Program-made: the position numbers and the translations under genes | The notes under the pieces: model-generated | The model's input: only the letters and a program-made list of their open reading frames with translations | What the model was told of the DNA's origin: nothing | The model's database searches: none | From: Bryum argenteum | Lineage: Eukaryota; Streptophyta; Bryopsida; Bryales; Bryaceae | Direction of reading: 5' to 3' | Assembly (NCBI GenBank): GCA_037043015.1 | Contig: CM073325.1 | Span: 16,285,001 to 16,349,000, forward strand | Length of the DNA: 64,000 nt | Part shown: positions 7,259-34,335 of the stretch, in pieces | Layout of the letters: the number at the start of each line of letters is the position of its first letter | Numbering within the stretch: position 1 is the stretch's first letter

Positions 7259-7766
7259 TAAGAATATTTTTGACGCGAATGAAATTTTCTTAGAGCAAAG
7301 TACAACCCACTTCCACAATTTGTTACTGCTCAAGATATAATCAAAGTATTATGCTACACTCATGGGATTTATTTATTAATACTTTGTTTGATCTCTAGAT
7401 AACCTCATACTCCTCCCGATTGTTGGTCCATGCTACACTAAATTTGATATTTAGTGTTAGATACACTAATTTACATAAACATGTTATAAGTTTTTATTGT
7501 TGTTCAATAATTTTACCCACTATATTGGCCAAGATGGGGGTCCTTATATAGTATCATTATCAATGCTCTTGGTAAATTTTTTTAAACAAAAGTAAAAACT
7601 TATAGCATTTCAAATCTTATAATAATCTAACACTAATTATCAAATTTAGTGTAGTGGGGCAAATTTTGGGGGATTGCTCTCTTCTCTCTCTTTTTCTTTT
7701 TATTTATTTACTTATTTCTTTTCACAATTGTCTATGGAGTTTTTGTTCAATTTGAGGCAACTCCAA
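7259..7766. other. AT-rich spacer left of the giant element
   Basis: No ORF or repeat structure is supported here, apart from a pyrimidine-rich run at 7675-7725. Confidence 0.5.
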
Positions 7767-7789
7767 GGGGTGGAAGCATGCTAGGGTGG
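7767..7789 (+). repeat. Left terminal inverted repeat of the giant element
   Basis: This 23-bp stretch is the exact reverse complement of 34313-34335. It begins GGGGTGGAAG and ends GGGTGG. Similarity stops at the inner edge apart from scattered AAAGTAC motifs. Confidence 0.8.
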
Positions 7790-8181
7790 CACACTTACGG
7801 CCACTTCGAAGTACTCAAAGTGTACCCAAAGTCAACGGACTTGAACTCCGGGTCCTGTGAAAGTACTGTGAGTACTTCTGGCTATATTTAGATGACGTGT
7901 CGAGAAGGCGCTTCGTGCGTATTAATGATGGGATCCTGACAGTCTGACAGTCAATTTATCGTCGGATTTTGGCAATAATGACGTTGAGTTGTAATGTGTG
8001 CTGGCAGTCAGCCACCGTCGATCACCGGTAGGAGTTGGAAAGGTGACTGGTGACGGCCGGTTTAGGTCGTCTCGCAGGTCGTGCCCGTGAGCTTCAGCGA
8101 TGCCCAGTCTTCGTTTTGCTCGTTTTGCGTTGTCGGAGGAGTTTTTCGCTAGTTTTTTGCTCTTGCTTCGTTCTTTCGCAT

Positions 8182-8904
8182 TGTTGCTTTGTTGTTATGC
8201 ACTGAACGGCTGAAGTCGAGGGTTCCAGTTGTGCGCTGTAGTGTAAGTGAGGGTTAACTTGAGTTGTGCGCTGTCGAAGGAGGTTCGGCGCAGCTGTGCA
8301 GCCTGTGTTGTCCGCAATTGTCGGACTTAAAGAGGGAGTGTCCGCTCTAGGTTTTAGGTTTAGAAGTGAGAGCGAAGGTAGTGACTCTGAGGTTGAACGT
8401 TGTCCAAGGAGGTTCGGCGCATGCAACTGTGCTGTCAGCAAGTGTGGGACTGATGCCGAGAAGTGTGCACGCTAGGTTTTAGGTTTAGAAGTGAGAGTGA
8501 AGGTAGTGGTTCTGAGGTTGAACTTGCGGGGCCGACTTTTGCTTGGTGCCTGTAGGTGAGAGACGACTGGGGAGGGGGAGTTGGCATCGCATTGCCCTCG
8601 GTATCGTGAGCTTCAGGTAAGCTTTTTGTGAAACTTGTACTAGTGTTTTTTTTCGCTGTTGCTTTGTTGTTTTTTGCTGTTGCTTTGTTGCTGTGCACTG
8701 AACGGCTGAAGTCGAGGGTTTTCGTTGTTATTCATAGATGGACTTTTGCTTGGTGCCTGTAGGTGAGAGACGACTGGGGAGGGGGAGTTGGCATCGCATT
8801 GCCCTCAGTATCGTGAGCTTCAGGTAAGCTTTTTGTGAAGTACCAGTGTCTTTTTTTGGTTTCATTAATTACTTGCTTGCGCTAATGTTAACCGGGAATG
8901 GCAG
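8182..8904 (+). promoter_or_regulatory. Repeat-built promoter and 5' leader of the SET-domain gene
   Basis: Three diverged duplications are interleaved here. One unit (8350-8399 and 8474-8524) shares GGTTTTAGGTTTAGAAGTGA. A second (about 8534-8633 and 8741-8840) ends in GCTTCAG followed by GTAAGC, a good splice donor, in both copies. A third (about 8182-8222 and 8684-8722) shares CACTGAACGGCTGAAGTCGA. An acceptor GGCAG ends at 8904, just before the first coding ATG at 8923, so the duplicated donors probably serve a leader intron. Confidence 0.55.
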
Positions 8905-8922
8905 GAACAAAACGTGGGCAGG

Positions 8923-11900
8923 ATGAAGTTCACAGACAAGGAAGGGAGGGTGAAGCCAGCACCTTCGAAATCTAAATCCTCACCGAGTGGATCAAAGTCC
9001 TGCCCTACCAAGAAGAGTTTGGTAAAGGCAGCAGATGCTGCTCCGAAGAAGGCGGAGAAAGCCTCCAAGTCAGCCGCAGCGGACGAGGGTCAGGAACCTT
9101 CGGAGTACAAAGACGAATTAGATGACGTGCTTGAGCAAGATATGGTGGATGTTGAATCTGCCATCAAGAAGTGTCGACCGCCTCCTCTGCAGATCCTTGC
9201 ATCAGAGTGGACCGAGAAATATGGGTTGGAGGGGAGCGGATTGAACCCAAAGCCGTTCAACACAACCTTCAAGTCTAAGGAGGAGATGGCGGAGGTATTT
9301 GGCAAGCGGATTGGGAGAAGAGGCAGGAACGGCTACAAATGGCAGGACTGTCCGATTGCAGAAGTGCTATCAAGGGTGCGGCAGCTGCATCCTATAATCT
9401 ATGGCCACGACCCTCATCACATGCCTCCACACGTGAAGGTGAAATTCGCTGAAGGGATTGTACATGAGCACCAGCATGGAGTAGGGTCTGTCAACTGGGC
9501 AGCGTTTGCACAAGAGGTAAATAACACTCAACGCACAAGGCGTGTAACGAAGACCATGAAGCTCGAGTACATGAAGGAATGTGGAGTGTCTACTGTGACG
9601 AAGGAGGACCTGAAGCACGTGAAGGTGGAATTACCAGCAGGATTGCAAGGTGCCGATGCATCCAAGAAGGTCAGTTATCCTTCATTGTATTGTTTGAGAA
9701 TTCCATTTTAAATTTTAGTTTCAGGAAAAAATTGTTATTCATAAGATCGATGTGCAAGGGCTATTGGCTCTAATTCTTGTTGCGCTGTTTTTTGGTGGCA
9801 GGAAATGTCGGAGGTTTGTGGGAGTCGCATTCCTACAAAGCAAGAGGATGACCTTGCAATGCGCACGGCTGAGAGGATGGGGCGCATGGGTGACACCATC
9901 AGAATTTTGAACATGGAGATTGGGAAAAATAAGGTAGCCCTTGCTGCCACAAGCTTGAGGAGGAAGGAAGCGAAAGATGCGGTCAAGGTAGCTGGGGCTA
10001 ACCGGGAGGACCTCGAGGGGCAGCTGAAGAGTCTGGAGTCTGAACTTTCGGATCAACCAGACTCCAAATTCGAGAAGATAGTCGTGGAGAGGATGATGAA
10101 AAAGAACAATGAAAAGATGGAGATTGCTGCAGGGGAGCTTCGGGCTGCGGTGGCAGAGTTGGAGCTGATTGAGAGCACACTGGAGCGTGAACAACGGCAG
10201 CTAAGTGCCTTAAACGATGAAGTGCAACAACTGAAGTTTGGAGGGCGGCCTTCGGGGATGCAGCCGTGGCCACTGTTTTATCCGAGCGTATCTCTAAAAG
10301 ATTGCCCTACCACTTATATAGCTGTCACTGTTTGTACTTTGTGTGCATTTCCTTTCCCAAATCATGACATTATCGTTGCAAGTTGTAAGCATCTTTATCA
10401 CCCTTGGTGCGCAATGGTTGTTTTTGGCAAGGGTAGAAGTACAAAATGCGTGCAGAGAACCTGCATGGGATTAGTGCACCCGAGTTGGCACGAGAGCTTT
10501 GGGTGGGGCATTCCAGCTGAGGAGTTACAGCAGCGGGCAGACCAGCTCTACACAGATGGCGAGTCAGCTCATTTGCAGCACCAACGAGATAATTATGCCA
10601 AACTAAACGAATCTGATTTTGGTACGTCTTACTTCAACTCCTGTTTTTCAGTAACCTTCCATGTAGTTAATGTTTAGCTTCATACAAATGTACATCCCGC
10701 TGGTTTATTAATTAGTCATTTGATATTGTATGTACATGAGGGAAGTACACTTATCTGAATAGTAGCGAAACTGGTTACCAACTCGCTGTAATGGAGCTCT
10801 CAATATAGTCTAAGTCACCTTTTGTTGCAGTGTATTGTACTCGTGATCGGGAAGTGAGTACATTTTGTATAGCGTGCAAACAATGGTATAGTGATAGTAT
10901 TGGAGAAGATGTTTGAATGTAGTTTGTGTATTGTGTTCAGTACTCATATAGTCTAGGAGTAAACAACGAAAACAAAATATACTTTGTATAGTCTGGACTC
11001 ATTGGGTAGTATTTGGTACTCAGTAGCACATGATTTAAGCTTTTTTTTTACATAGGCTACTCCCTAGTACCTATCTTTGTACTCAGTATGTGTATAGGTA
11101 GTGAAGAGCACCATAAAGTACACTCATGTACTCAACTAAGGTAGTGTATGGTAATTTTGTACTAAATTCAGTATGCATGGTCACCAATTGTGAATAACTT
11201 ATCGTTTAGTACGTGTTATGTACATGAATAGGTACCTGAGCCGTTGGCACATAGTACTCATTAACTATACAACAGTACTGTAGTGAGTTTTAGAGTATAC
11301 TATGTACTCTATACATGTGTAACTAACAAACAAACATTGACAACATGCTATTTTTTTCTCAAAGCTTTTGCGCGCCATCAGCTTCTGATTTTGTTTTGTA
11401 CTTGCATTCAGCTGTGATTAAGAGACAATGCCAACCACTCCCAGGGTCCAAGGAAGTCAACACTGTTGTAAGGAAGGAGCAACCAAATCCGACCACTCCG
11501 GACACCACAACAACACCAGTACATGCTGGATTAGGTGAAGGCAAGGAGCAACCAAATTCGACCACTCCGGGCGCCACAACAACACCAGTACATGGAGATT
11601 TAGGTGAATGCTATGCGATGCCAACCCCTCCGGCATTTATATCCTCTAGATTGCCCCCTTCGCGACAGCTGCCTTCACTGCCAAGACCGGTGCTTGCAGT
11701 TGCAGCTAGCCCGAAGAAGCAGAAAGTTACTGCGTTGCTTGGACCATCAAGTTATGCAGGTTTGTTATCATGCCTCGGTTGTTGCTTGAATGTTTCTAAA
11801 TATTGAAATTAAGTTTGCATGTTGAGATACTAAAGATGTGGTTGTATTGGCAGGATTGTTGAAAGGCATTCCTGCCCAAGATGCGGCCTCCGATGAGGAC

Positions 11901-12784
11901 ACGGCATCCTCAAAGAGAGATGAAGGTGATGCGTCAGACTCGGAAGCTCAGAGTGACGATGAAGGGGGCGAGTCACCACAATCACCATCGATCCACGAAT
12001 TGGAAGTCCAGATGTTGCCGCAGCAGTCCACAATAGCGGCAAGTGAAACTTCGACACTCCCTGAATTGCCAAACAAGTCAGCACCATGGTGCAACAAGTA
12101 GAAGTCCAGATGTTGCTGCAGCAGCCCACAGTAGCGGCAAGTGAAGCTTCTGAACTTCCTGAATTGCCAAGCAAGTCAGCACCATTGGTGCCCGATGTTG
12201 ATACTGTAATGCAGCAGCCCGTGGTAGTAGCAACTGAGGCTTCCCTTGAACAATTTGGGGACATCGAGGCTGCTATCCAGCTTCCAGAATTGTCCAACAA
12301 GAACGACACCAACGACAACAACAACGGCGAGGTGATGAACATGGTGTTTAGTATTGTTGAGGCAACTCAGGAGCCGGGAGCAAGAGTTGCGCAAGGCCTT
12401 TCGGGAATAGGTGATCCAGATCCAATGGATGTCGTGGTTGATATCCCGGTTGTGAAGAAAGGACCATCAGCTCACCTCCTAACTGTAGAGCAAGCTGGAG
12501 CGGTGAAGGAGGGCACCATCACAGACTTTGGTGTAATGCAAGAGGGGAATTTGGTAGCTCATGTGCCAAAAGTAGTATACCCTTTGGCTGAGGCTGTTCC
12601 TGTTGTCGAGAAGAGCGGGACTAATGATGAGGGGACAACGCGCAAGACAAGGCTGCGAATTGCCAAGGGCCCAGAAGAACCTGGAGAGGACGATCAGACC
12701 CCTGGCAAGAAGCAGAAGATGAAGGATCTGGTTCAAGTGGAGAAGGAAGCAGGCGAGGCTCTAACGAAGCAAAAGCCGAGGCAG
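8923..12784 (+). CDS. N-terminal exons of SUVR-like SET protein (coiled coil, RING-like)
   Basis: Four exons join in frame: 8923-9669, 9802-10621, 11412-11759 (or from 11382) and 11854-12784. Introns are GT-AG with matching phases (0, 1, 1). The first ATG after the leader acceptor is at 8923. The product starts with a Lys/Ser/Ala-rich tail, then a conserved-looking globular part (about residues 80-230), a Glu/Lys-rich coiled coil (about 270-400), a RING-like Cys/His cluster (C-x2-C then CKHLYHPWC), and low-complexity acidic and Pro/Thr-rich segments. The last exon ends in phase 0 at CAG followed by GTGAGC and would splice to 26928, across the inserted CACTA element. A 1-bp loss near 12085 shifts the frame inside a tandem repeat. 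With that base restored, exon phases add up across the whole gene. The joining to the SET exons is inferred from strand, phase and position. Confidence 0.65.
10622..11411 (+). other. GTAC-dense intron of the SET-domain gene
   Basis: This intron holds roughly 17 GTAC tetramers in under 800 bp by eye, against about three expected by chance. Most are in the contexts AGTAC or GTACTC. The same motif is dense in 29930-32150 and at both ends of the element. Confidence 0.6.
11996..12200 (+). repeat. About 100-bp tandem duplication with a 1-bp frameshift
   Basis: Two adjacent units each encode EVQML-QQ...LPEL...KSAP. The second reads CACCATTGGTGC where the first reads CACCATGGTGC. The missing T at about 12085 moves the first unit into a frame that stops at 12101. 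Confidence 0.8.
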
Positions 12785-12926
12785 GTGAGCAGAAAGAAAG
12801 GTTGTCGACGATAGATTGTTTGTCAATGTCTGTATTTTGTTGTTTTACTTTGAAGTGGTAGGCAGTCTTCCATGCTTTGTACATGATGATAAGTTTTGCA
12901 CTTATCTTCAAATTTTATATATCTAT

Positions 12927-13110
12927 CACTACAAGAATGTTCCACTGCGAACTACGGCCCGGAAGCTACGTTTGGGACACTGGCCTCTTTTTTGCGGATT
13001 TTTGCTACGTTTATGGCGGCCTAGATTTTCGGCCCAGCGCTGCTACGTTATCTCGGGGGTTCGTACAGATGGAACTACGTTAGCTTGGGAACGCGTAGTT
13101 CCCCTACAAG
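12927..13110 (+). repeat. CACTA left TIR and subterminal CTACG repeats
   Basis: The TIR is 12927-12956. The next 150 bp hold about half a dozen CTACG or CGTAG motifs (AACTACGG, GCTACGTTT, GCTACGTTA, AACTACGTTAG, GCGTAGTTC). Such subterminal arrays are TnpA-binding sites in known CACTA elements. Confidence 0.75.
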
Positions 13111-14108
13111 TAAGCGCTGTTATCCTGGTGGGGCATAAATTGCGGCCTCGGGGGTTTCACCGAGTATGCTATTCTGGGGTTTCGACAGTACGTCTCGGTA
13201 GAGCGGATACTGGATTGTACATAAGGTAAGTATGACATGGCATTGCTGGGAGTAGATTTGCCCAGGTTCTTGCATTCCCCGAACTAGTTAAAATAGATGA
13301 CTTACTGAGACCGAAAATTCTCGTATGGCATACATGAACCGTGAGGTGAAAATATAACTAATCGGTAAAAACCCGAGATGATAAAACTCTATCTACAATG
13401 CAAAGTAATGTCTGATTGGCTTACTGTTGTGTACATTCGTGATATTGATATGAGATTCACGATTTCTATCTCGTATTCTGTACAAATTACTGAGACTGTA
13501 ATAATCAAAGTGATCATAACGTAATTTCATACAATGGAAACACATTTTCTATGGTAAGGTAAAAAGTGATTACGTGGAACAACCTTATTTTTTTGCATGT
13601 GGTTTACTGTTTGCTTGGGGTTTACTGTAAAAAGTTCGAATTCGGTGATTCTCTTACCTCGAACTTCACACGCAATCCGTTTCACTGTGGAGATATTAGT
13701 ATGAATATAACCACATACTCAAACGAGTTTGTTTGTTTGATTCAAACGAGTTTGTTTGTTTGATTCGGTTTATCAAAATGCAATACTGATGTAGACAGAA
13801 TACAAATGTGGCGACGTTGATCATACTCATGTATTGACAACAAATTTCCGTAGAGATTTATACATTTGTAGTCATAACTACGGGAACACTGCTCGTCAAG
13901 TATACGAACTCTTAATGCTAGCCCACATTCGTGACTGGCACCGGCTTCGCATCACATCGGTTGCATTCCATTGAATTGTATACTTCCATTACAATGAATA
14001 GAGTAAAGATACTAGTATGTGTATACCATCCTAGAAATAAAGCTCTGCTGGACTGTTAGGAGCAAAGACAGAATACACTAGAAGGGCAACTTCTCCGTAC
14101 CTATTACT
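13111..14108. other. CACTA internal non-coding stretch, left side
   Basis: No supported gene. A perfect 24-bp tandem duplication sits near 13720-13765 (CAAACGAGTTTGTTTG repeated). Confidence 0.5.
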
Positions 14109-14561
14109 CTACTGAATGAAACGAGAGAAAACTCTGAACCTGCCTGGAGCTTCTTTAAAGCGCCATGGACCAACCTTGTTGTATTTCAGGAGCTGCTGAC
14201 GGTCCATTAGATCAGTGCAGTGGATAAATGCACACCAAAACTCTGACACTAGTCTCATCTTCAGCATGTTTTCCACTTGAGAATTGGGGTTTCCTGTGCG
14301 TATCTTTGGCCACACCTCTTCTGCAACTATAACATTTGGGATTCCGGGAATTAGTTCTTGTCCCTCAAACCCATGCTCTGGAATGAAGTCAATGTCCCCA
14401 TTACTTCGTTTTCGAGCCTGCTCCATAGTCATTCTCTTACTGCTACCGTGAATTTGGTATTCATTGCCAAGTGCGAGCACCGTCCGCTTTCGCCGTGTCG
14501 TCCCCTGCTTGCAGATATTGTCTCCGACCTTTGCAGCTTTATCTTCCTTTATATTGAATTC
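14109..14561 (-). CDS. Hypothetical exon in the CACTA element
   Basis: An open minus-strand frame follows a good acceptor (TACTCTAG ending at 14562) and runs 151 codons to a stop at 14109. The product begins EFNIKEDKAAK, has a basic patch (RRKRT) and a central Trp/Pro-containing segment. I do not recognise a domain. It lies 3' of tnp2 on the same strand and could be a downstream exon of it or a separate element protein. A short open segment at 15293-15490 on the same strand may also belong. Confidence 0.4.
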   Translation of the reverse strand, partial: EFNIKEDKAAKVGDNICKQGTTRRKRTVLALGNEYQIHGSSKRMTMEQARKRSNGDIDFIPEHGFEGQELIPGIPNVIVAEEVWPKIRTGNPNSQVENMLKMRLVSEFWCAFIHCTDLMDRQQLLKYNKVGPWRFKEAPGRFRVFSRFIQ

Positions 14562-15586
14562 CTAGAGTACAAAAGCTGCCCAGTGTCAGTATAAATTACA
14601 TTGTGTACTGAAATTCTATCATACATATCTACCGCAAACTCAGCTTACATATCGGGTTCTGTATGCAATTCTGTTGGTTTTCGATTCTGTAAACCGTACC
14701 ACTTGTACCGTTGAAAATTTGGGAACGAGTATATATGTCAAGAATTGGTTGATTTACGAAATGCAGCTGACGTTAGTTCTGCGCTTCTGCATGACAGTCT
14801 CCCAGATAATACATGTACTGATACCTAATTCACGTTATACGCCAGTAACGTCCGAAATGAAAACTCCCACACTTATACTGTAAATACGGCATTCCTCGTT
14901 CTGCTTCGATACCTCACCAACAATTATTTGTTATTTAAGTAGCAGAAGCGGTTCTGCCAAAAACATATTCGCCATCACAAGTATCACCCTATTCACTACT
15001 TCGCATGAAAACCACACAGCAATATTTGCTTACATTTACCGTAGTTAAGACGTGTGCTGTAGACCGGTAGTGCAGAACTCCTCGTTCGGTAGCGTCCATT
15101 CCTCACGTACTGTGACCTGCGAACACCGTACCGTCCCTGTATCGAGGCTTAGATAGTAGAATTATGACTGTAATGTGCATTACCAATTTTTTTGGGTCAC
15201 ACCTCAATCCCTTCTATCTAGAAGCTTTTCCTCTACCTTCCACTAATCGACACTTACAATTTTGACTGCATTTGTCCGTAGTTCGTAACCGCTTAGCAAA
15301 GTGCGGGGAAGTCATCCAGATTTTCATCGTACCTGTGCAAGAGCCTCCTCCCTTCAAATTTTCCATTGCAGACATACAAATCTGAAGTTACCTCACCATG
15401 TGGCGCCATTACCGCTTCTCCACCTAATCTTCCGTCTCCTTTATTCCCCGACTCCTCCGCCATTTCTACCACACATCTGCGGTTTACCAAATAACGACAC
15501 CGTTACTTCCATAAAAATCGAAGGGATGAACGACTAGTAATTACAGAGATAAACAACTGCTGCATTGTAATAACCTGTTTACGTGA
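14562..15586. other. CACTA internal stretch between the hypothetical exon and tnp2
   Basis: AT-rich with no firm gene. The minus-strand open segment 15490-15293 (66 codons) is the only coding candidate and has no recognised domain. Confidence 0.4.
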
Positions 15587-18500
15587 TCACATATCCGCTG
15601 AATCTAGAAACGGCAGGGGTTGGCTGACATCCAATTCTCCATCACTCTCTATCTCTGCTAACTCGTCTTCAACCTCGAATTGGTCGAATCCCACTGGGAA
15701 ATCCCAAGTTGGTGGGTTCGGATCGTCATCCTCGGGGTAATTTTCCTCCGCTACTTCTTCGGCACCTACTTCACTGTCACCTTCGTCCTCTATCCCGATA
15801 TTGAATCCTTCGCCTGCATCATCATCAGCCTTGGTGGCCACCAAATCCGACCTATTTCTCAGAGAAACAGAGGGAACGGTGGACGGTCCTGCTCTTTGCT
15901 CCACAGGAATGACGATGGGGTTGGAATTAGGGTTGACTTCGCCGAAATTTGCAGGACCTACTGCCGCCCTCTTGTACACTACTAAATTTGATCGCGGTTG
16001 TACCTTTACAACCATTTTCCAACCGCGGTTTACTAAATCATCTACAAAAAAAAACCTGACTTACGTCTTTCGGGAATATGAAAGGATCATCGTCAACGGA
16101 GGAGGCGCTTATAAAGTCCCCTGCCTTCACACGATGAAAGCCACACTCATCTTCAAAAACAGTGGCATTCGTCCCCCGCTGTCTAATGATTGAATTCCAG
16201 AACTGACACTTGAAAAAAACTGTCTCAAAGCTATCAAAATTCAGTTTCACAATGGTATCTATGTAGCCATAATACTTTGTTTGTTCCCCCCCAGCTTCGT
16301 AGACAACTGAGACCCCTGAGTCAAACGTAGTTTTCTTGTTCAAATCCCTTGCCATAATACGAAAACGGGACCCATACGCCCAACACATAGTAAAAAATTG
16401 GCCCTTCTCTCCTGGTCCAACCACAATGTCAATTACCATTTGCGAAACTGGCTTCTGAGAGGCTATATCATCTCGAATTGCTGCTTGTACCCAGTCTTTG
16501 AATGTGGGTTTGTTGGCCATCATTTCACACTCTACTACATATCGCTCCCTCCATTTCTCCATACATGGAGCATTCAATAATAAGAAACGATGGGCTTGTT
16601 CCCTGAATATGTTATCCAAAAGCTTGAGGGTAGATATTTTAGGTAGGACAATTCCTATTGATCGTGCATCCTCCTCCGTCGGCTTTTGGAGACGTGTAGC
16701 ATTCTTGTGCAACCTTTGAGTAAATTCATTCACATGAAACATTGATTCCGCACATATGTAGCCCTCTGCAATAGATCCTTCAGGGCGGGCGCGCTGCTGT
16801 ACAAAGTCTTTCAAGACCTTCAAATATCTCTCGATGTGATACATCCAACGGATGGAAACTGGGCCTGCAAGTTCCACTTCTTCGACTATGTGAATAATAT
16901 TATGCATTTGAATGTCAAAAACTGAAATCGGTAAGTGCATTTCCATTTCACATAGGATTTCGGTTGCCTCCAACTTCATCTTCGGGCAATCTGAGATCTT
17001 AATTTCCTTTGAGCACACCCAACGAAAGAGAGCAGATAGTCGGTACACAATTCGTCGAATTGCCTCCGTTAAAGTGCCCCTCACCGCAATGGGAAGTAAA
17101 TCATGCAGTAAATTATGGTAATCATGTGTTTTGAAACCTATCACCTTGCGGTTGTTGAACTTGTACCGAAAGCTTGAGCCATACCCGAATGGAGCCCGTG
17201 TGTTAGATATCATGTCAATGATTGAATCATATTCATCGTTTGTCCATATCCAGTCGGCTGGAGAATAAGTCCACTTTGTTGCACCCTTCTCATCCACTCC
17301 ATCTTCCTCTGGGTGAAAACGTTGCAGGACATTGAAATGCTTCAAGGACCTTCTTAACGCCAGTGAATCAGATTTTGTCCCTTTGCAATTAGAGAAGGTT
17401 TTAAATAAGGATGCGCATATGTTTTTCTCCGTATGCATAACATCAAGCAGATGAGGAATCAATAGATTCTGGCCAACACCCCCCCCAAAAAAAAATTAAT
17501 CATATATACTCTAAGATACAACGATGGGCTTTTAGAGAAATGGTTACAAAAAATGCAAATAGTTCATATGTACATACTTACAAGAACAAACAAACGACAA
17601 AGCAATGGGTTCAGCATGAGGTACAGTAACTCCTTATTTGACATCATATATATGAAATTTTTTGTACATGTGTATTCACCCTATTCACTTCTGTATTACT
17701 TAAGTTCAAAATAGAATAGTAATATCTATGTACGGACTTATCTTAGAGATGGTATTGACTTTAATGGTTACTACATTTTTCAAATGGAATTTCTTCGTTC
17801 CATGAACTTCATCAGATTATATTCCTCATATTTCCTTATCAACAGCGCCCTGCTTCAGGTTTAGTATAAAGTATTCACCAAACATTGTTAGATGTACCTG
17901 AATAGATGAGTGGAATGATTTCTGTACATACCTTCTAATAAGGGAGACGGAAAAGTATGGACTTGTCCTTCATGCCTGAGTCCTTCAGCTGCACAGTCTT
18001 GTTCACAACTTTTTTCCACATTTTTAGCCAAAATGTACCCGTAGTTCTCATAGGTTTAGGAACCTTATTATATGACTCACCGTTAAATTTTTTACGGTTC
18101 CTAGTTGCTCTATATTTGTGGTGCATTGGAAGGTATTTCCTATGCCCATAATACACAACCTTCTTCAAGAACATACACTTCTTCGATTCAATAGATATTG
18201 GACCACAAGGGGGGCATGCTTTCAGGCCTTGGGTTTGAAGCGACGAAAATACGCCATAACCCGGAAAATCATGCAATGACCATAGCATCATAGCATGTAG
18301 TTTGAAATTAACTTTCGTATTCGCGTCGTAAGCATCAACACCATCCACCCATAGTCTTAACAGATCATCAATGAGAGGCTCCATGTAAGTGTTGAAGTTC
18401 TTTACTTTTCTTTTCCCTGCACATATGGATCAATATTGAAGTTATTATTATCTGTACCAAACTTGTTATTGTAATCGAAACATCACTCTATATTTCTGGT

Positions 18501-22621: not shown

Positions 22622-25600
22622 ATGAGCGCATCGAAGGTAGGTGACACAATCCTTGTTGCAGCTGAAGAGGAGGAACCGGCACAACGTGAGGGAAAGGAGC
22701 ACGAACCTCGCAGTGGGGTGATGGGAACGAAGGACGATCCTCGCAGTGGGGTGATGGGAACGAAGGACGATCCTCGCAGTGGGGTGATGCGAAGTCTGCG
22801 GTCGAGGAGTTCGAGCGGTGGAGCGAAGAAGAGCTTGGAGGTTTCGCTTGGACTCCCGCAAGCGTCAATCCCGGCAGCACTGCTCGACTCCAAAGCAGCT
22901 GATGCCGAGGTAATCTCGAATGCAGCAGCACCTCCGCACTCGGCCGTGGTCGAATTAGAGAATGTGCGGACAATTGAAGCAGCTCCAAGGTCCGAACTCG
23001 TAGGGGAAGCGACAATGGACACAACTTCAACGGAGCTTGCGGCAGCGACAACAGCGAATGCGACAGCCCCTGAGGCTCCAAAGTCCGCCCAACCCAACGC
23101 AACAGGTACTTCTTTTCAACCCGAGGATGCGCTGAAGGATGTGAATTCAGCCTGGATAGTAACGATCCGAGCAGGAGCACCGTCGGCTGTAGTCGAAGCA
23201 GAGAATGTGCACACTGCACTGGCGCCACCACCGTCAACGCAGGTGGGAAAAGTGGAGATATCGAGCACCGAAGCAGCAATGTCTCCCGTGGCCGGAGCAG
23301 AGGAGGTGGTATCAATTCTAGCAGTACCGTCTCCTGAGGTCGGAGAAGCGGAGGTACAGCCTGTCCTTGAAGCGAACGCCACTCCTGTGGAAAATCACGG
23401 AGGTATGAGTACAATCCCCATAGAGTAGTCCGAAATTTCTGTAGTTTACATGTGCATGTGGAAAACTACTGATTACTGTGAGTTGAACGCAGACTTTGCA
23501 ACTTTCTCATTCCCGGATGCGGGTGGAGATACAGTCGAGGGAGGGGCAGTAGAATTTCCAACAACTGAAGATGCTGGAGACGACACACACTCGCCAGCGC
23601 ATGAAAATTCAGAGTATCCAACGAAGTCCGTGGAGAAAGGTGATGTCGCAGCAGGGGTGGAAAACAACGTCGAAAACCAAGGACAGCCTTCTTCGGATGA
23701 GCTCACGCTAAATCCTGGTAGAAGAAATGGCAAGGCAGCGAAGAAGATCCCCGCAGCTTCGAAGGAGGTGACGAGCCCTTCGAAGCAAGTGACGAGCCCT
23801 TCGAAGCAAGTGACGAGCCCTTCGAAGCAAGTGACGAGCCCTTCGAACCAGGTGACGAGCCCTTCGAACCAGGTGACGAGCCCTTCTTTGAATTTGCAGA
23901 GTCCTTCCACCATAGGTATTGTGCCTCGTTGTCAAATTACCGTACAAGATTGCATTAAATCAATACGGTTAGCAAAAGAGCGCTCGAGGAGTCCTTCGCC
24001 CATAGGAACACCAACGTCAGAGCCGCATGGAAGTCCTCCGAGTCGACCACCCCGACCTCAAAGACCGAGAGATGTAAATTCACCGAGCGCTCTGAAGTTG
24101 GTGCTGAAACCGGAGAACATTCCGAGTACCGAAGCGGAAGGTGGCCAGACAGTCGATGTGGCAAAGAGCCTGGACAGCATTCTAAGCCTTCTTCCACCAC
24201 AGGAGGTAGCGGCCTACTTTGCGAAGAAAGCAAGTGTAAGTTTCTTTTCCGGGCAATAACTGTATATTTCTGTACTTCTTCTCATGTAAGTCCTCTGCTT
24301 CTAACTACGTAAGTACAGGAATTGGAAGCAAAATTGGGAGGATCCAAAGGAGGAGATGGGGCCAGTAAGCCGAAAGACGAAGTGAAGGTGGACAAATCCC
24401 CCTCAGTGAAAGAAGTTACATCAGCAAGGAGGCTGAGGAGGAAGAAAAAGGAGGCGGAGAAGAAAAAGAAAATGGCAGTCATCGAAAAGGCCATGAGAGA
24501 CTTGGAGAATCAGAAGGCGGCGCTGGTGGGCGGAGGAAAGCAGAAAGGGAAGACTCCAGCCCCATCACGACGCGAAAGCAGCAAAGGACAAGCGTCCAAG
24601 CGAGCAGTGGTCCCAGTCGAGCAATCAAAGGGGACTAAGGTAAGCCACTCAAAGGGGGCCAAGAAGAGGAAGTCGGGTTCTGTAGATTCATGCACTCCTA
24701 GTCTACTAACCGAGAACAATGTAATATCAGATCCTCATTCAATAGGAATTTGGGACACCGTGAAGGATGTGCCACCGTGTGAGGTAAATGCGGTGGGGGC
24801 TCCAATAGGCACGTTTTGGGAGCACATGCAGAGTTACACACACGATAGAGCTCCATGGTTATTCGAATGGGACCTGCCGTGGCCAAAGCAGTCGAAGGAA
24901 ATGAAGCGAGCTTTTGCGAATAGGATTCAGTTACTGTACCCCGGTAAATATGACATAGATTATGTAATGGAGGATGTAGCCACTAACATCAGACAAAGGA
25001 GGCAGAGAACTAGGAACCACATGAAGAAGTATAAGTCCAAGAATTTCACACCGATCGCTCATGGTCTTACGGTGAAGTCTTGGAATAATATTTGGGCATC
25101 AATTTCTAACCCAGACTACCAGGAAAAGGCTAACAAATGCAAAGCTGCTGCCGATGCAAGAACTGAACGGATCAAGTACACCCACAGGTTGGGCTCACTG
25201 GGAGTGGCAGGCTTGGTGAAGAAATTCGTAAGTTCACTCATACTACTCCCATGAATAATTTCTTATTTGCAGTAACAGGTTCTTCTATATTGGCAGTGTA
25301 CTTGTGCTTATGATTGGTATGTATCACCTGTGGGACACGGCACGGGGTAGCTTTCATTCATGTTAGGCAGTGATTGATTGTAGTATTTCAATTCCAATTA
25401 CGAATTTGCGCTAACATTTGTTTTATCCTCTATGGTGGCAAACGTGTCAAAGGAGGATGAATTCAACAGGGTACCGACGGAAGAGGAGGTGGGATTCGCG
25501 AAACGGGAGGGACTTCGGAAGTTGTTTGAAACTGTACAGAACCGAATCAGCGGAGTAGTGGCAACGCAAGCACATGAGCAGACCGGTGTGGCTGCGAAAA

Positions 25601-25899
25601 CAGATAAGCTAACGAATTCGACTGCATCGAGAGGAAAGAAGAAGAGGAACGTGGTCGCATCTTCCGACTGCAGCGAGGAAGAAAGTGCTCAGACATCTTC
25701 CGACGATGAGGAGGAGGCTGATATGTCTAAAGGAGCTTCAAGCTCTGATGACTCTGCCGACACGAGCAACGCTGACAGCGGCGACTGTGACGAAGGAGAG
25801 GATTCGGAGAAGGTGCAAAGCGAAGACGAGGACAACGAAAATGAGATTGAAGGTGACGGGAACTCCTCAGATGCTGCGACCTCGGATCATGCTGAGTAA
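22622..25899 (+). CDS. tnpA-like DNA-binding protein of the CACTA element
   Basis: Exons 22622-23402, 23493-24235, 24319-25227 and 25453-25899 join with GT-AG introns in phases 1, 0 and 0. The first exons are Ala/Val/Glu-rich low-complexity sequence. Exon 2 has seven copies of the heptapeptide TSPSKQV or variants. Exon 3 starts with a Lys/Glu-rich coiled coil, then a folded part with WLFEWDLPWPK, NRIQLLYPGKYD, MEDVATNIRQRRQRTRNHMKK, SWNNIW and a closing YTHRLGSLG. That order resembles the plant transposase family Ptta/En/Spm, the TnpA-like partner of TNP2, which binds subterminal repeats. The C-terminus is acidic and Ser-rich. Frames are intact. The true start could lie upstream, because the frame is open from about 22430. 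Confidence 0.7.
22708..22790 (+). repeat. 33-bp tandem repeat in the tnpA-like gene
   Basis: Two full units plus a partial third encode RSGVMGTKDDP in tandem (RSGVM occurs three times). The units are almost identical at the DNA level. Confidence 0.8.
23765..23890 (+). repeat. 21-bp tandem repeat (TSPSKQV) in the tnpA-like gene
   Basis: About six near-identical copies of ACGAGCCCTTCGAAGCAAGTG, with AAG changed to AAC in the last ones. They encode the seven-residue repeat in frame. Confidence 0.85.
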
Positions 25900-26689
25900 A
25901 GCATTTCTCAGCTGTATGTTAGGGGAGGGAGTGGAATGTATAGAGTAATTTCTTATTCACATTTTCATGTGCTTTGGATTTATTATGTTTGTAGATACTG
26001 CATATGTTGCTTTCTACTAGGCTGTCAAACTTCATCAACTGCTCTGCTTGACTATATTCAATGGTACTATCAGAACTTTTTCCGGGAACAGTTGAACAAT
26101 TCTTTTCAACAGTATGATTTATGTTCCTGCTTGTATTTCACGCAGTCTAAGTTATAGGAATGAATTGGTGCCATCATCTCTCAGTGATGCATATTATGTA
26201 CAAAAGAAACATAAAATGTCGTTGTAATAAGGGGTGACCTGAATATACGTACGTATGGGGGGTATGACGAGGATTGCCCTCCGAACAGTAGGATAACCAC
26301 ATATCCAATGGCTGCGCAGTGCGATTTAAAATTTTGAAGTTATGACATGGCAAGTTACTATTAGCCGGAGATAAGTCTAATCTAGCAGTTATGTGAGGTC
26401 AAATGGGCCACACGTGCCACTAAACCCCGAAGTACCCGCCAATTAACTGTTTTATCTTAGGTAAAGTTTCATATACTAAATCAAATCTACAGTTACTGTA
26501 GTCATAACTATAAAGTGAAAATGAAAATTACTAGGAAGGGAGAACTCCAAAAATAGAAGTACTTCTTCGGTCGAGTTACTGTATGGTAAGGAAATATGTT
26601 TTCACGACCCCGTTAAACCGCAACAGTAAGGTTAAAACAACACTCCATGGGAACGCGCTTATCCAGGGAACAGAACGTTCCCAGTCAAA

Positions 26690-26845
26690 ATACTGTCCGT
26701 AGCTCCACCTACACCCCAACGTAGTGAAATTTTTAATTACGTCTGATTACAACTTTTGCTACGTTTTCGGGACGCCTTCACCGATTTCTTCCAGACCAAA
26801 TTGCTACGATTTTGGCGTAGTTCCCAATGGAACATTCTAGTAGTG
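26690..26845 (-). repeat. CACTA right TIR and subterminal CTACG repeats
   Basis: The TIR is 26816-26845. Copies of CGTAG, CTACG and TTACG recur through 26695-26820, mirroring the left end. Confidence 0.75.
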
Positions 26846-26927
26846 TATGAAGAGAGGATAACTGAACTTATCTTCAATTGTTTTATGTGTATTCTTGAGC
26901 TCTTCACTTTTTTCATGACAATCGCAG

Positions 26928-28129
26928 ATTACATGGTATGATGAAACTGATATTGCTAGAGGAATGGAGCAGATTCCAGTATCAGTCTGTGTGCCCGTGG
27001 AAGGCCCATGCCCCATGGCACCATTTGTGTATGTTGCATTGTCTATTTTATCTGAAGCAGTTGTCATTGATGACGAGCGGGAAAGCAGCTGTACTTGCTA
27101 TGGACAAGATTGCAACATGAACCCAACTGCTTGTGAATGTATTAAGAAGAATGGCGGTCTCCGTGCGTACGGAGTTGACGGTTTATTGCAGAGTGTCGAT
27201 GCATCTGAGGTATGCAAGGTACTACTTCGGTACTTTCTATACCTCTTTTGCTTCAAATTTCTTCAGTAGCATTAAACGACGGCTTTCGTTTGTGTGATTT
27301 TGTGTGATTTTTTTTTGTGCTTTGTATTTTTTGTTGCTTGTGAAGGTGTCCGGCTACGAGTACTGTGAACCGGGGGAGGGTTGTTACGTGTCGGAAGACA
27401 ATCATTCGTGGAATCCTGTCGATGGTTCACCTGTTTGTGGAGGACACATTCCAAGGAAATTTATTTTTGAATGCAATATTACTTGTCTATGTCACGCGAG
27501 ATGTGGTAACAGGGTGGTCCAGAAAGGTCTCACCTTGTGTTTGAACGTTTTTTGGACTGGTAATAGGGGATGGGGTATAAGAACTATTGATGCCATTGTG
27601 AAAGGACAGTATGTCCTTGAGTATCATGGTGAGATTTGTACAAATGCAGAAACCATGAGGAGGACACAGCTGCGACCACAAAATGGCTTGTATGCCCTCA
27701 GCTTGGACGCCGAATGGAAGGCAGAGGCGGCTAGCAATGACGAAACGGCCTTAAACATAGACGGACTGATGTACTGTAATGTTGCGCGTTTTTTGAATCA
27801 CAGATGCGAAGATGCTAACTTGGTGGACATGCCGGTGAAGATCAACCGCAGCGACCCTCGGCTTTACCACGTAGCATTTTTTGCGAGCAAAAATATCGAG
27901 CCCTATGAGGAGCTAACTTGGGTAAGCCACGAAATCTACATTATACTGTTTAGCTGTTTAGTTATTCACTTGATAGCAATGGCCATGCGGTTTCTAAATC
28001 TATTTTTATTTGGCTACGGTTTTAATACAGGACTACGGTTTACGACCAGCTGATGGTGAGACTATGGAAGGACTTTGCCTGTGTGGAAGTGCTTTTTGCC
28101 GATATCCTGCCAAGAGAACGGAAGTATAG
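26928..28129 (+). CDS. SUVR-like histone methyltransferase, pre-SET, SET and post-SET exons
   Basis: Exons 26928-27209 (or to 27218), 27346-27921 and 28031-28129, all joined in phase 0 with GT-AG borders. The first exon opens after ATCGCAG with ITWYDETDIARG, the region before pre-SET in SUVR proteins, and so needs an upstream exon. Pre-SET cysteines follow (CTCYGQDC, ACEC, CNITCLCHARCGNR). The SET domain has RGWGIRTI, the catalytic-pocket motifs FLNHRCEDAN and ELTWDYG, and the post-SET motif CLCGSAFC. The match to plant SUVR1/2/4-type (SUV39 class) enzymes is clear, including the VAFFASKNI-like stretch before ELTW. That class methylates histone H3 at lysine 9, a silencing mark. It lies inside the giant element and is probably continuous with 8923-12784, giving about 1,260 residues. 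The catalytic part looks intact; activity depends on the upstream frameshift. Confidence 0.88.
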
Positions 28130-29022
28130 TAGGTAGTATATTATTGTATATAGTAATGAGGACCCTTACATATTTGAAACAGTGATTTACTTTGCTTCAC
28201 TTAGATCTAATGAACCATGTAATTGAGTGTTTGGTAAGCTTAAGTGTTGACCAAGTGCTTCTAATAGCAGATTTTCATACCCGTAATTTTTTGTCATGGT
28301 TACGATTTTTGTACACATGGTTTTGGTGATTGCATGATCAATGTGAAATACTTTTCTAATATCAATAGTCTAGCAGATTGGTTATACTCTGCTATGTGAA
28401 TGGTCAATGGTCCCTTGTACATTCTCTGAATGGTGTAGTCTGTTATATACTTGTACTTCGATATGACGGTACTAGCACAAATGGAATGTGGTAGAATATA
28501 AAAAAAATAAGCTTTGTAAGACAATGAATATAATTAGTTAGCACGAAAAATAAAAAAAGTCCCAAACATGGACTAGCTCCTGTTTGGGTGTTCATTGTGT
28601 CAGGCAGGAACCGGTCCCCGCCCACATGAGAGGCAAGGTACTTTCCCCTCAAGATTTCTCTCGTCCCCGATCTGAACGAGGACTCGGTGTTCTGCTGACG
28701 AAAGGGACCCTGGTAAGTTCTATATTTATTTACCCTCTGAGGTAACTTTCCTAACTATATGGGATAAATAACTTTTACCAGCCCAGTAACATTTTCTCCT
28801 GGCGGTTATCTCGCCCAAGTATCGCCTGAGTACCACCATGGTCATAACCTGAGTACCACCAGAGTACCAAAAGTACCAGATGAATATGTGAAGTATACAA
28901 TTCTGATTGAAAAATTTAGATCCTTTATTTCAAAAAGTCAACATAGCATAAAACTGCAGCTTTATACTTCCCAAGTGAAGGAAACACATAATGAGACAAG
29001 TGATAAGTACTAAATTTGGCAG
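28130..29022. other. Convergent spacer between the two giant-element genes
   Basis: No gene seen. It contains a cluster of GAGTACCACC and AAAGTACC motifs at 28825-28880, matching the GTAC-rich character of the element's non-coding DNA. Confidence 0.6.
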
Positions 29023-32000
29023 TTAAAATGTACTATCCTCTGTTGCCCACCACACCGACAGTACTTGCTGGATCATTTCAAGAGTCCCTGCTGTTAGCTT
29101 GTAAACAACGCAATCACCCCGAACCGTATGTTGAGCGAGAATCATTGGAAACTTCACTGCTTGCACAAGATGAGGCCGAATATGTGCCACAGGGGATTTG
29201 TCACGCAAGACAAATGTGTTAGACCCGCTCCCGTACTTTTGGTAGTAATGGCCAATTATGGCATCGTCACCAGCATGAAATTCCTCCCCCCATGGGCAAA
29301 CGAAGTCTTCCTAGACCTCAAACTTCGGTACTTGACATTGGAGAACATAAAAGTCTACCCCCTCATCGTTACCCTCCAAGGCTGGAATCATAAAATTGTC
29401 ACCAACTTGGATAAGACTTGAATTAGTTTCGTCCACACTACCATGAATCCAATTGTCTGGCTCATCGTGAGTTTCGATCTGATCTTGCACAGCAGCTACG
29501 TTTGCTGGTCTGAGACGCACAACCCGCCAATCTGCGACATGCGACTTCTGCTCACATCTTACCCACTCTTGGTTAATGCCAGGGGCACAATAGCATGACA
29601 AATCACGAACCATCAAAACAGTGGGGTCAACCACTGAACAACCAAATATACTGTGAAATTGCCTAGAACCAGGAATAGTTTTGCACTTCCACTTGTTGAT
29701 TCTATCGACCTCCTCAAGGCCAATACACCAAAATACTCTAGCTATTGGCACCTCATTCATAACATTCGACGATCCAATAACACGATGGGAGAAATTAGCC
29801 TTTAAAAAATCAACACATTGTAATGCATTGGCTAATTCGTCCTCCGGGTGCTGGATCTGATGGGTACGCAATGCCTTCTTCACAACCGCTCCAGCACCGT
29901 CCCACTCTCCTGCATATGTAGTTGTGAGATACCTAGGTATTACAGGTTCCTAAGAGTACAGTCACTTGTATTCCATGCAGTTCACAGTACACTGTACAAT
30001 AACTGTACTCTAACGGGGTAATCAAAAGCTACATATATGAGCCCAAAAGTACAATTAAGTGTACCCAAAGTATAACACTATACATAAATTGTATTAAGAG
30101 TAACACTCGTTTGCAAATATGGTTAAGCCAGAGTGAGCTTCTACATAAGCGATTATAATACCCACCATGTTTGTATAATTACAAGAATGGAGGAGCAAAT
30201 AAAAGTACCGATTTCAATTATTTATTAAGTATTCATAATGAGGTTGAAATACGAAATTGATACCTTTTCCATGACCGCTACCGAAGAAGTTCCATCGCAT
30301 TGGGCACCCAGTGAGACCCGGATACCGGGCTACAAAATATATAGCCCGAGCCCCTTTAAATTGTGAGGAGCACCCATCACTGAAGACCCAATGCTCATTT
30401 GGTCTGATATCTGCAGCCATTAACCACTTCCAATGCAGAAGCATACAATGTTGCACAAACAATGAATCGTGTTTCTTGTCATCACTTATATAATAGTGGG
30501 TGTGTTTTATAATGCTTCCACCTTCTTCTTCTTCTGTTGGTGGCGTCTTATAGAAGGTAATGTGCACAAGAATGGTTATAGAGTTACTAAACCAATGCAT
30601 GCTTTGCACCTCATTCTGGATTGCAAAAGTATAATTTTCTGCAAAATCAATATGAGAGATTAACACTCCGGGTGGTACGTTCTTCATCATATTCCTGCAC
30701 TCACCATCTTGCCAATTTGCTACAAAATTGTGAGTGACAAATGATTGCACCTTCTTCTTTAGGTACGTTACAAACTCACCCGGGGATGTTTCCTTGAACA
30801 CCTCATGTATGCGCTTCTTCTCATAACCTGTGTCTTCATGAACCCCAATTACCTTCATTTCGAAGCATCTCCACTTAACCAACAAATCAGTAGCAACCGA
30901 CAACTCATGTGGACAAAAATGCATCTTCTTCACACCACACAATGTGCAATCACCCATTAAACAAGTGAGCTTATGCCACTTATCTAACTCCCCCTTTGCA
31001 CAAACAGATGCTTGCCAAAGCGATGAGATGCGATCAAACGTACAACTTGTTGCACTACAACCATCACTAGCTATACCACAGACCTCACAACCGCATGTGC
31101 TACCTACATGACAATGATTGCCTTTAGAGGTGTCTCTGAAGGTATCAAGAGCTTCCCTTAGCAAGTCTATTTCAACATGATTCACACAGCAACAACTGTT
31201 TTGATCCTTGAGTGTTTTGACGTACCAAGGCTTCAAATATTCGAATGCACGTTGCTTTATACGGCACTCAAGATGAGCTTCCGAAAAAGCTCTAAACAAT
31301 TGGGCCTAACAAGCAATACAAGCGCAAAGTTAGTATAGAAGACAACCCATTGGATAGACTGATCTAGCACATCATTACTAGGGTTACATTGAGTACACAA
31401 TTCTAGTGATGAGGGTACTTACCCAATTATAATAGGTACTCAAAGTACCTCCTATCAAGGTCTGATACTTACCCCTAGAAGTACCAACTTTGAGTAGTAC
31501 TTAGTATTGTCGTGCACCTTATACTAATATATGTACGCAATGTACTGAAGACACATGGAACCCTCAAAAATTTGTAACCATTGTATCAGAGGGTGTACCT
31601 AAAGTACAAATGTGTATACCAGAAAAACTTAGATACTTTTACTTATCTACCCATATTGCAACGTCTATACCCTAATTATGAAGTACAACCTCTGTACTTG
31701 TATAACTCCGTGAGTACAGTAACTACAATTAAATTACTACAAAAGTACAAATTAGGGGGGACTACTGTGATAGCGATAACCTATGTACAGACACCACCAT
31801 GCAAATACCTTTGTAAGAATTACTATCACCACCAAGTACCTATAATACAAATAGACCTCTACTTACGTACAGAATCAAACAAGGCTTGTCGGATGAGTAT
31901 CTGAAGTTCTACTCTATACTATCCACCCTGACGTGAACAACATAATCTACATGTTGACAACCATGCACATTCATATGTAGCAAACAATTTCCCAACTTAG

Positions 32001-33409
32001 ACATCAAGTACTCATAAGAAACAGAAATTAAACAATAAGTTCAACCATATTTGTTAAATCAAGAATGTCAGGCTTCTCATTGCAACCAGAACCTCCATGG
32101 ACCATATTACACCGTTGCAGAATCACAAATAGGGACTTATACAACATCAAACTCACCTAGTATCTATTAGATAGTGAGTTGCATGCACCATATACTCCTT
32201 TTTGCCTAAGCGCCGTCGCGTCACATCTTTCTTGTTTGGAGACACACGAGATCTCTCATGCCACCATGCACGCACTGTTTCCTTCACATAGTCTGACAAC
32301 CCTGCACGCTTAGCCCGCTCCAAGAGTTTGTACTGTGCATGGACATTGTCACAGCCACCTCTTCTCTCTACAGCGTTCATTATATTTCTCGGATGCACCT
32401 ACAGAAACGCCCTCAACTATATTAGCACAAATCAAATGTAGTTTCTACATATACATCATCTCCAGTTCGTGCTAAACACCAAAAGAGCAGTCCTAGAGTC
32501 GAGCATGTCGGGTCGCTACTATGAACACGCAGGAATGATGCTGCGGCCCATACTATCACCCTTCTCCTACCAAGTATTGAGGTGCATGGAAGTGATTCAC
32601 CGGTCATGGTGGAATTCATGGCTGAAAAACAGAATATTCAACAAAGATTCAAGAAGCCCTGAAGCGATTGAGGACTCTATACCTGCTTCGAATTCTAAAT
32701 GCATAGAGTACAAGTTGCCTAGCTCTACTGCAAGTGCGAATGTTAGAATACGTTCAAAGGAACATTCATGGTCTCATACCCTCTGCACTATTGATTCCAG
32801 GCCATGCAAAGACACATACAAACCCTAAATACTAGACAAGACTAAAAACTTTGACAAACGCACCTGCAGCACCCTTGAAAGCACTCGCGTTGCTTCGATG
32901 CCTTCACTTACGGCTGCATCCAAAAGAACCCCCTTTCTTGCCAAGAATGCCTTTGAGTGCGCACCTTTAACGGCATGTAACTCGTTCCGGTAACTCTTCA
33001 AGAACGTGTAGATGGATTTTGCGTCAGCAGGCTGTGGATAATACTCTGGAAGCATGGGCCATATTGAATCGTGATTCAAGGTCTTTTCAAGCACCGTCCT
33101 CTTGCAAGTTGGTGTCTTGCATTCTGCAAGCTCCTTCACGATACAAGTCGCCAGGTTGTTTGACTTCCGACTACTCGTACGCTCAGGCATTCCAACGCTT
33201 TCCACGGAACCTTCCATGGAACGCCTCAGTGTTTGAACATTCCGGCTAGATGCTAATAGCCTCTCCCGATATGCACGCATTCGTAGTCGCGACTGTTCCG
33301 CTTCAACCTGGCGTCTCCGTTCAGTTGCTGCTGCAGTGGCCGCTCGTACTTGTGGACCAGGTCGGCTCACGCCCAGCCGCCTCCGCATGCCACTGCGTTG
33401 ACTGCCCAT
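29023..33409 (-). pseudogene. DDE transposase-like gene of the giant element, with in-frame stop
   Basis: Minus-strand exons 33409-32864, 32398-32157, about 31305-30264 and 29909-29023. The start MGSQRSGMRRR is basic and Arg/Glu-rich. Exon 3 has a Cys/His-rich part (CGCEVCG, CTLCGVKKMHFCPHE) and then the core: HIDFAENYT, VFSDGCSSQFKG and, across the next splice, GSGHGKGEWDGAGAVVK. This D ... D ... E/D series with an HGKG glycine loop is what an RNase H-fold transposase shows, and I know it as a repeated theme in plant and animal transposon-like genes, but I cannot name the family. A TAG at 29313-29311 interrupts a frame that otherwise continues to 29023 (EDFVCPWGEEFHAGDD...). The exon 2 to exon 3 junction is out of phase, so a small exon is missing from my model or a frameshift exists. 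Confidence 0.65.
29930..32150. other. GTAC-dense introns and flank of the transposase-like gene
   Basis: The non-coding parts (29930-30080 and 31380-31900) are packed with GTAC in contexts such as GGTACTCAAAGTACC and AAAGTACAA. The coding exon between them is not enriched. Confidence 0.55.
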
Positions 33410-34312
33410 AACGATGTAAACCCTAAACGCTAAACCACTGTTTGCAATGCTAGCAACGATATGAGAGCTCCTCAACACAGAAACCTCAATCCACCTCAAA
33501 CGACTACTTCGACAGAAAACAAAATTGGGTTCAACAAAATCAACTAAAAATTTCGTTAACCCTAAAGCCGCAAGAAGAGGAGAAAGACGAAGTGGCCCTG
33601 ACATCGGATCCTCTCGAAAAGCGCCTCAGATTCTTGAAGTGCCAACGGCGCCTGAACAATTGTAATGACGGTTCCTAATCTTGAATGCAGCCAGCGATGA
33701 GGCCGTGACGAGGTTCGCATCTGGACCGTCGATTATTACTAAAATCGACCGTCACTAGTACTCTAAGTACACAAGGAGTATAGTTTCAAGGAATTCCCGC
33801 TCTTCCTCCATTTGCACTTTGGCGCCAAAAACCGACTGGTCGTTTCCCTACCCACCTGAAGATGACTAACACCAGTAGGATTGCGTCGAGAAAGACCCAA
33901 AAAAATTCTTTTTTGACAAAATTAAACCATACAAAAGTTTTTGCCCTTTGACCACTCAAAATTAGATAAAAAAAAAGGGTTTTTGGGAGGCAATGATGCA
34001 CATTGTTGAATATTACAATGTGCCCTCTCTAAGCATATAATTTGTTGAGTACTTTGCTAGCTAATTTTATCTAAACTTGAGTACTTTATGTGTTTGTTAC
34101 AGACCGTAACGTACTTTTCTAAAAAACAAAAAAGGCAATTTAAGTAATGCTCCACATACGTTTGTAAAAAATGGTCTTGTGATTTGCACAATTCATCACT
34201 TCCTTTACCATAGTCGCCAAAAATCTTAGTACTTTACGATGTGGAAGGGTCCATAAACGGCCTTCGAACATGGAAATTCACTGGAATTTAAGCCCGTAAC
34301 GTACTTTTTGTT
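33410..34312. promoter_or_regulatory. Right subterminal region and upstream DNA of the transposase-like gene
   Basis: No gene is supported here. At least four GTACTTT motifs lie between 34050 and 34310, close to the right inverted repeat. The spacing fits a subterminal protein-binding region, by inference only. Confidence 0.4.
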
Positions 34313-34335
34313 CCACCCTAGCATGCTTCCACCCC
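34313..34335 (-). repeat. Right terminal inverted repeat of the giant element
   Basis: This is the exact reverse complement of 7767-7789. It lies about 0.9 kb upstream of the ATG of the transposase-like gene. GTACTTT motifs cluster just inside (34050-34310). Confidence 0.8.

Follow-up and report, generated by a model that had tools for sequence, protein, structure and literature searches.

A cut-and-paste DNA transposon in the moss Bryum argenteum, probably of the Sola superfamily, with a predicted SUVR4-type SET gene beside its transposase gene

Results

The window analysed here is a stretch of 64,000 nucleotides from the moss Bryum argenteum (NCBI GenBank assembly GCA_037043015.1, contig CM073325.1, positions 16,285,001 to 16,349,000 of the forward strand). 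Between positions 7768 and 34334 it contains a cut-and-paste DNA transposon with terminal inverted repeats, 4-bp target-site duplications and two convergent genes, of which the genome holds many copies as well as empty sites. Gene 1 is located on the plus strand and gene 2 on the minus strand. An earlier note on this DNA had described two inward-pointing genes, and their open frames as well as their conservation between the subfamilies of the element bear this out.

Comparison of the letters of both arms showed that 7767-7789 and 34313-34335 are perfect reverse complements, as had been noted earlier. The true terminal inverted repeat is 22 bp long (GGGTGGAAGCATGCTAGGGTGG) and perfect in both arms, the left one at 7768-7789 on the plus strand and the right one at 34313-34334 on the minus strand. 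The repeat described in the earlier note is thus real, but its 23rd base pairs by chance and belongs to a 4-bp target-site duplication, CAAG, at 7764-7767 and 34335-34338. The outermost base differs between copies because it is part of the target site. For the same reason the weak point conceded in that note, a duplication no longer than AA, vanishes, since the outermost G/C belongs to CAAG. When up to three mismatches were allowed, the 22-mer matched twice in the window, whereas 100 shuffles gave 0.01 matches on average, and the 23-mer had 118 and 144 matches genome-wide compared to none for the reversed control, which rules out an inverted repeat by chance. Matches to the element ends were present on contigs C1 to C11.

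For the target sites we compared 32 paired copies, 11 of them whole (the window and 10 fetched copies) and 21 represented by their ends only. These pairs were hand-picked from lists of element ends, comprising 100 of the 262 23-mer matches and two further lists, and at least one further listed pair, C3:10990092-10997650, lies outside this sample. The 4-bp duplication was exact in 31 of the 32 pairs, the remaining short copy being off by one base, and none of the pairs matched when the duplication was scored as 5 bp. When the right flanks were re-dealt among the copies in 2000 shuffles, matches of 4 bp averaged 1.2 and never exceeded 6. Therefore, both a 2-bp AA duplication and a 5-bp duplication are ruled out. 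The 31 duplications showed no clear base preference and no clear preference for AT. Only one of them was TTAA, so that the TTAA-specific elements piggyBac and Kolobok are ruled out as well. In the 11 copies read the termini are GGGTGG..CCACCC. Moreover, all 11 copies have five occurrences of the motif AAGTAC/GTACTT within their final 500 bp (33835-34334 in the window), compared to 1.5-2.7 per kb inside, and near the left end its number varies more (0-4 per 400 bp among copies). These repeats are candidate transposase-binding sites.

Empty sites were searched in the genome with joined flanks (70 + 66 bp) of 19 copies. Matches spanning the junction were found for at least 8 of the 19 insertions, which is a lower bound because 40 of more than 2000 candidates were scored per search. 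In seven cases (C6c, C9a, C5c, C4a, C1:7196271, C2:7239842 and C3:5165225) the best match was 93-100% identical and of equal length in query and hit, the one for C3:5165225 spanning 114 bp; matches for C6a were partial and 76-86% identical. They are related repeats without the element. The search for paired copies, flank duplications and empty sites that the earlier note had recommended thus came out in favour of its single mobile unit. A non-mobile explanation, in which two adjacent host genes happen to lie between inverted repeats, is refuted by the duplications, the empty sites and the distribution of the ends over the contigs. We found nothing in favour of this explanation and consider its chance of being correct negligible.

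Without a nested CACTA element the transposon measures 12,645 bp, in agreement with the 12.6 kb proposed earlier for its length before that insertion. The 10 fetched copies range in length from 11.7 to 12.5 kb, and the listed paired ends lie between about 0.6 kb and about 28 kb apart. Two subfamilies can be distinguished. Subfamily A (the window, C10a, C6a, C1a, C6b and C6c) has a mutual identity of 83.9-95.7% and subfamily B (C9a, C5b, C5c, C2a and C4a) one of 95.8-97.8%, while A and B are 72-75% identical over 4.0-5.5 kb. In addition, non-autonomous derivatives with a length of about 0.6-0.85 kb were observed at C1:3510974, C1:7196271, C1:27955907 and C5:277659; they share the inverted repeats, and their 4-bp duplications are exact.

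Gene 2 comprises four exon frames on the minus strand. Exon 1 (32825-33625) is an open frame conserved between subfamilies, and exon 2 (32151-32406) was recognized by its conservation between subfamilies. Exon 3 (30214-31305) is rich in zinc ligands and contains the first and second catalytic aspartates (30646-30648 and 30376-30378), and exon 4 (29311-29949) contains the third (29899-29901). The product has a conserved D-D-D triad, numbered D221/D306/D348, with no C-x2-C in the 41 residues separating D306 and D348. It is strongly predicted, from its fold and from alignment, to be a transposase of the RNase H fold. No Pfam transposase model matched exons 3, 4 and 1 or the 19 members of the transposase alignment; at E values up to 5 these members gave only scattered Pfam matches (best E 0.02). 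A profile search of the PDB sequences with the transposase gave no match at E up to 1.

Gene 1 starts with an open exon frame at 8869-9711, the N-terminal region, which has three database homologues. It is followed by an exon frame (9745-10677) with a RING-like zinc motif at about 10327-10449 of the pattern C-x2-C..C-x-H-x2-H-x2-C, for which the Pfam RING matches were weak and under the cut-offs (E 0.0018 and 0.059). The middle open frame (12065-12814) is poorly conserved between subfamilies, and no counterpart was located in two of the five subfamily B copies. The SET exon frame (27298-28053) contains a SET domain at about 27568-27921 (Pfam SET, E 5.4e-14) with the NHxC-type motif RFLNHRC. 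The last coding exon (28031-28129) provides the post-SET motif DYG...C-x-CG-x3-CR and the stop codon; this motif was shared by the window copy and all four other copies examined, two per subfamily. All these frames are on the plus strand, and we infer that they form one spliced gene that combines a RING-like module with a SUVR4-type SET domain.

The closest PDB structures to the SET domain were SETMAR (E 2.3e-29), SUV39H2, Clr4 and G9a. In a tree of 50 rows, from which 11 of the 58 hits were omitted as being shorter than 195 residues, the three element SET domains grouped with named plant SUVR4 proteins in a clade of 33 rows with a support of 100/99. By midpoint rooting only, this clade is separate from the animal SETMAR, SUV39H2 and EHMT2. 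By relationship the SET domain would thus be of the SUV39/SUVR type, in the SUVR4/H3K9 class. Arabidopsis SUVR4 is stimulated by ubiquitin, and a RING-like module beside a SUVR4-type SET domain would therefore be a suggestive pairing. Upstream of gene 1, direct repeats at 8122-8839 on the plus strand (two 99-bp copies that are 99% alike and families of 80, 62 and 30 bp) form a possible regulatory region.

We further analyzed how often the two genes occur together. The genome search gave 156 SET matches, of which 150 were listed and merged into 136 loci, host genes included, and 112 listed transposase matches; 150 of 334 SET candidates and 112 of 411 transposase candidates were scored, and all counts hold among the matches listed. 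At 77 of the 112 transposase loci, a SET locus lies in convergent orientation no more than 15 kb away, with a median gap of 2.1 kb, and at none of the 112 was a SET neighbour found solely in a non-convergent orientation. Convergent partners accompanied 31 of 34 transposases with 75-100% identity to the window, 32 of 42 with 60-74% and 14 of 36 with 50-59%. As to the outcomes the earlier note had named against its own proposal, we found neither a repeat that is mostly solo with unrelated interior nor the two genes apart at conserved host loci.

The SET gene could also be a captured host fragment that travels in the same transposon as a functionless passenger. In favour of this, DNA transposons of plants are able to take up genes of their hosts, the element SET domain groups with plant SUVR4 genes, and among the 36 most distant transposase loci 22 lack a listed SET neighbour. 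Against a passenger stands that transposases as distant as about 54% identity to the window still have a SET partner. Furthermore, the two genes diverge from the window copy in parallel (Spearman 0.89 between their identities for 60 pairs hand-picked from the 77; 0.90 including the window), and both subfamilies retain the SET and post-SET motifs. Between subfamilies the ratios of non-synonymous to synonymous substitutions (dN/dS), which are rough, were 0.12-0.29 for the SET frame (four of five comparisons defined). They were 0.05-0.15, 0.13-0.19 and 0.17-0.34 for transposase exons 3, 4 and 1, and 0.17-0.26 for the RING frame (three of five defined); dS was saturated in all five comparisons of the N-terminal frame of gene 1. 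These values point to purifying selection on both genes between subfamilies, and we regard a mere passenger as quite improbable.

Among the distant transposases (50-59%), those at C2:12512001, C8:11272834 and C3:13394234 are intact single frames of 632 amino acids without a listed SET neighbour. Such transposases may represent a state that preceded the gain of the SET gene or followed its loss.

The CACTA element nested in the window copy (12927-26845; 13,919 bp) has the ends CACTAC...GTAGTG, encodes Transposase_21 and DUF4218 on the minus strand and is flanked by a TAT duplication at 12924-12926 and 26846-26848. It is a separate, later insertion that interrupts the copy. It separates the middle frame of gene 1, which ends 112 bp before it, from the SET exon frame, and probably landed in a gene 1 intron. 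A run of four frames on its plus strand (22427-25899) may constitute its second gene; of these, the two searched, 24313-25254 and 25384-25899, had no Pfam match above the curated cut-off.

Beyond the element, at least five very similar open frames for chlorophyll a/b-binding proteins are located within about 26 kb on both strands (36191-36997, 41008-41679, 56766-57443, 58890-59681 and 61544-62251), and the one tested matches Chloroa_b-bind. Among them, an ankyrin-repeat protein gene with a PGG domain was identified by its Pfam domains at 47430-50583. Together these genes point to a plant host.

Discussion

Sola transposons are described as having a DDD transposase, 4-bp duplications, inverted repeats of 11-1124 bp, very variable termini and a size of mostly 2-9 kb and sometimes more than 15 kb (PMC10741241). 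They are known from the moss Physcomitrella and are described as uncommon in flowering plants (PMC10741241), where a table also names Capsicum (PMC9033089). The element in the window shares the 4-bp duplication and the DDD transposase, and the length of its inverted repeat and its size are inside the published ranges. Since every testable published Sola feature was found in it, it probably belongs to this superfamily, by published description (4-bp duplication, DDD, size) rather than by sequence kinship. It differs from the described Sola elements by its second gene with SET and RING-like parts.

The transposase could alternatively derive from an undescribed superfamily with 4-bp duplications. 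In line with this, all Pfam transposase models were unmatched, and target sites of slime-mould Sola2 elements are AT-rich (PMC3627910) whereas those of our element are not clearly so. On the other hand, the DDD triad, the 4-bp duplication and the size fit Sola, whose termini vary widely (PMC10741241). We therefore consider an undescribed superfamily unlikely, though worth keeping in view.

Several other groups of DNA transposons were considered. Mutator and VANDAL elements are ruled out by their duplications of 7-12 bp (PMC10741241). Canonical Harbinger elements have duplications of 3 bp (PMC12730594) compared to 4 bp here, and no Harbinger-type transposase was recognized by Pfam, which leaves room for a kinship with HarbingerS. 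In the CACTA/CMCT clade the duplications have 2-5 bp and the termini are mostly 5'-CA..TG-3' (PMC12730594). Therefore, 4 bp alone does not exclude this clade, but the termini of the 11 copies, which are not CA..TG, rule it out for the whole element. Lanisha, an EnSpm-like group, was dropped because of its CMCT motifs and the mostly CA..TG ends of that clade (PMC12730594).

Transposons with chromatin-related genes have been described in other lineages. HarbingerS and MuDR transposons of Phytophthora are also reported to carry SET histone methyltransferase genes (PMC12730594, citing Kojima and Jurka 2014), but they belong to another host kingdom, and the SET domain described here groups with plant SUVR4. 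Fungal TET/JBP transposons likewise bear an epigenetic enzyme; they belong to several other superfamilies, and the enzyme acts on methylcytosine and not on histones (PMC12730594). VANDAL Mutator elements of Arabidopsis encode the anti-silencing protein VANC, whose targets are often tandem repeats (PMC5735166). They resemble our element as plant DNA transposons with an accessory gene, acting in their case on their own silencing, and direct repeats lie 5' of gene 1 here. The two differ in superfamily and duplication length. VANC is not known to be a SET protein. SETMAR/Metnase also unites a SET domain, the closest solved SET sequence to ours, with a transposase. It is a primate host gene that originated from the insertion of an Hsmar1 transposon next to a SET gene (PMC6326780), whereas our element is mobile and contains two separate genes in convergent orientation, and the tree places its SET domain with plant SUVR4. 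In listings and abstract openings of open-licence PubMed Central papers, Repbase not included, no SET-bearing transposon was found for plants or for Sola. The earlier statement that no such family has been described thus holds for the literature searched, but Sola fits the 4-bp duplication and the DDD transposase, and SET-bearing transposons are known elsewhere.

Taken together, we consider it quite probable that the element represents a multi-copy cut-and-paste lineage, most likely of Sola, with a D-D-D transposase and a retained SUVR4-type SET protein that would act on the element's own chromatin. Several points weigh against this reading. The Sola assignment is drawn from published descriptions and is probable only. 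Foldseek found no match of the transposase to the PDB and viral models at E ≤0.001; its top PDB rows were NurA and PIWI/Argonaute chains (E 0.0016 and above), and integrases were ranked by a second aligner only, among the chains that Foldseek had passed. Several element copies contain stop codons, and the exon joins of both genes are predictions. The Pfam pre-SET domain was matched in its C-terminal part only (15.8 bits, cut-off 29.1); its remainder may lie in an upstream gene 1 exon. Moreover, 35 of the 112 transposase loci, including the distant ones mentioned above, have no listed SET neighbour, and 60 of the 136 SET loci have no listed transposase partner, the latter being a mix of host genes, decayed copies and loci with partners beyond those listed. 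Finally, dS values between the subfamilies mostly approach or exceed 1, which makes the dN/dS values rough, and within subfamily A dN/dS reaches about 1.1, as expected for ageing copies.

For the favoured cut-and-paste lineage we propose the following mechanism. The transposase would excise the element at its inverted repeats and reinsert it with a 4-bp stagger, as fold and alignment strongly suggest. The lineage appears to have acquired the SET gene from a plant and to have retained it as a working part. From relationship, selection and co-inheritance we infer an accessory role of the SET protein in chromatin. Least certain, it might act on the chromatin of element copies to the benefit of the element and tune host silencing, up or down, beyond merely escaping it. 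It is a tentative and rather doubtful extension of this that a lineage spanning dozens of loci in two or more subfamilies, with its own H3K9 writer composed of a RING-like module and a SUVR4-type SET domain, sets the chromatin of its own copies, either by keeping silencing tolerable or by blocking deeper host silencing.

DNA transposons with 4-bp duplications and a DDD transposase were already known, as were SET-bearing transposons elsewhere; new, within the literature searched, is the unusual second gene with a SET domain in a plant transposon. The element also explains much of the large SET count of the genome, as 76 of the 136 listed SET loci lie beside a listed transposase, and gene annotation may misread such loci as host genes. 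Hosts silence transposons by H3K9 methylation. Here, a transposon lineage itself appears to carry an enzyme of the H3K9 class, judged by relationship, which is kept under selection. Therefore, one could test directly whether the silencing marks of transposons are under their own control.
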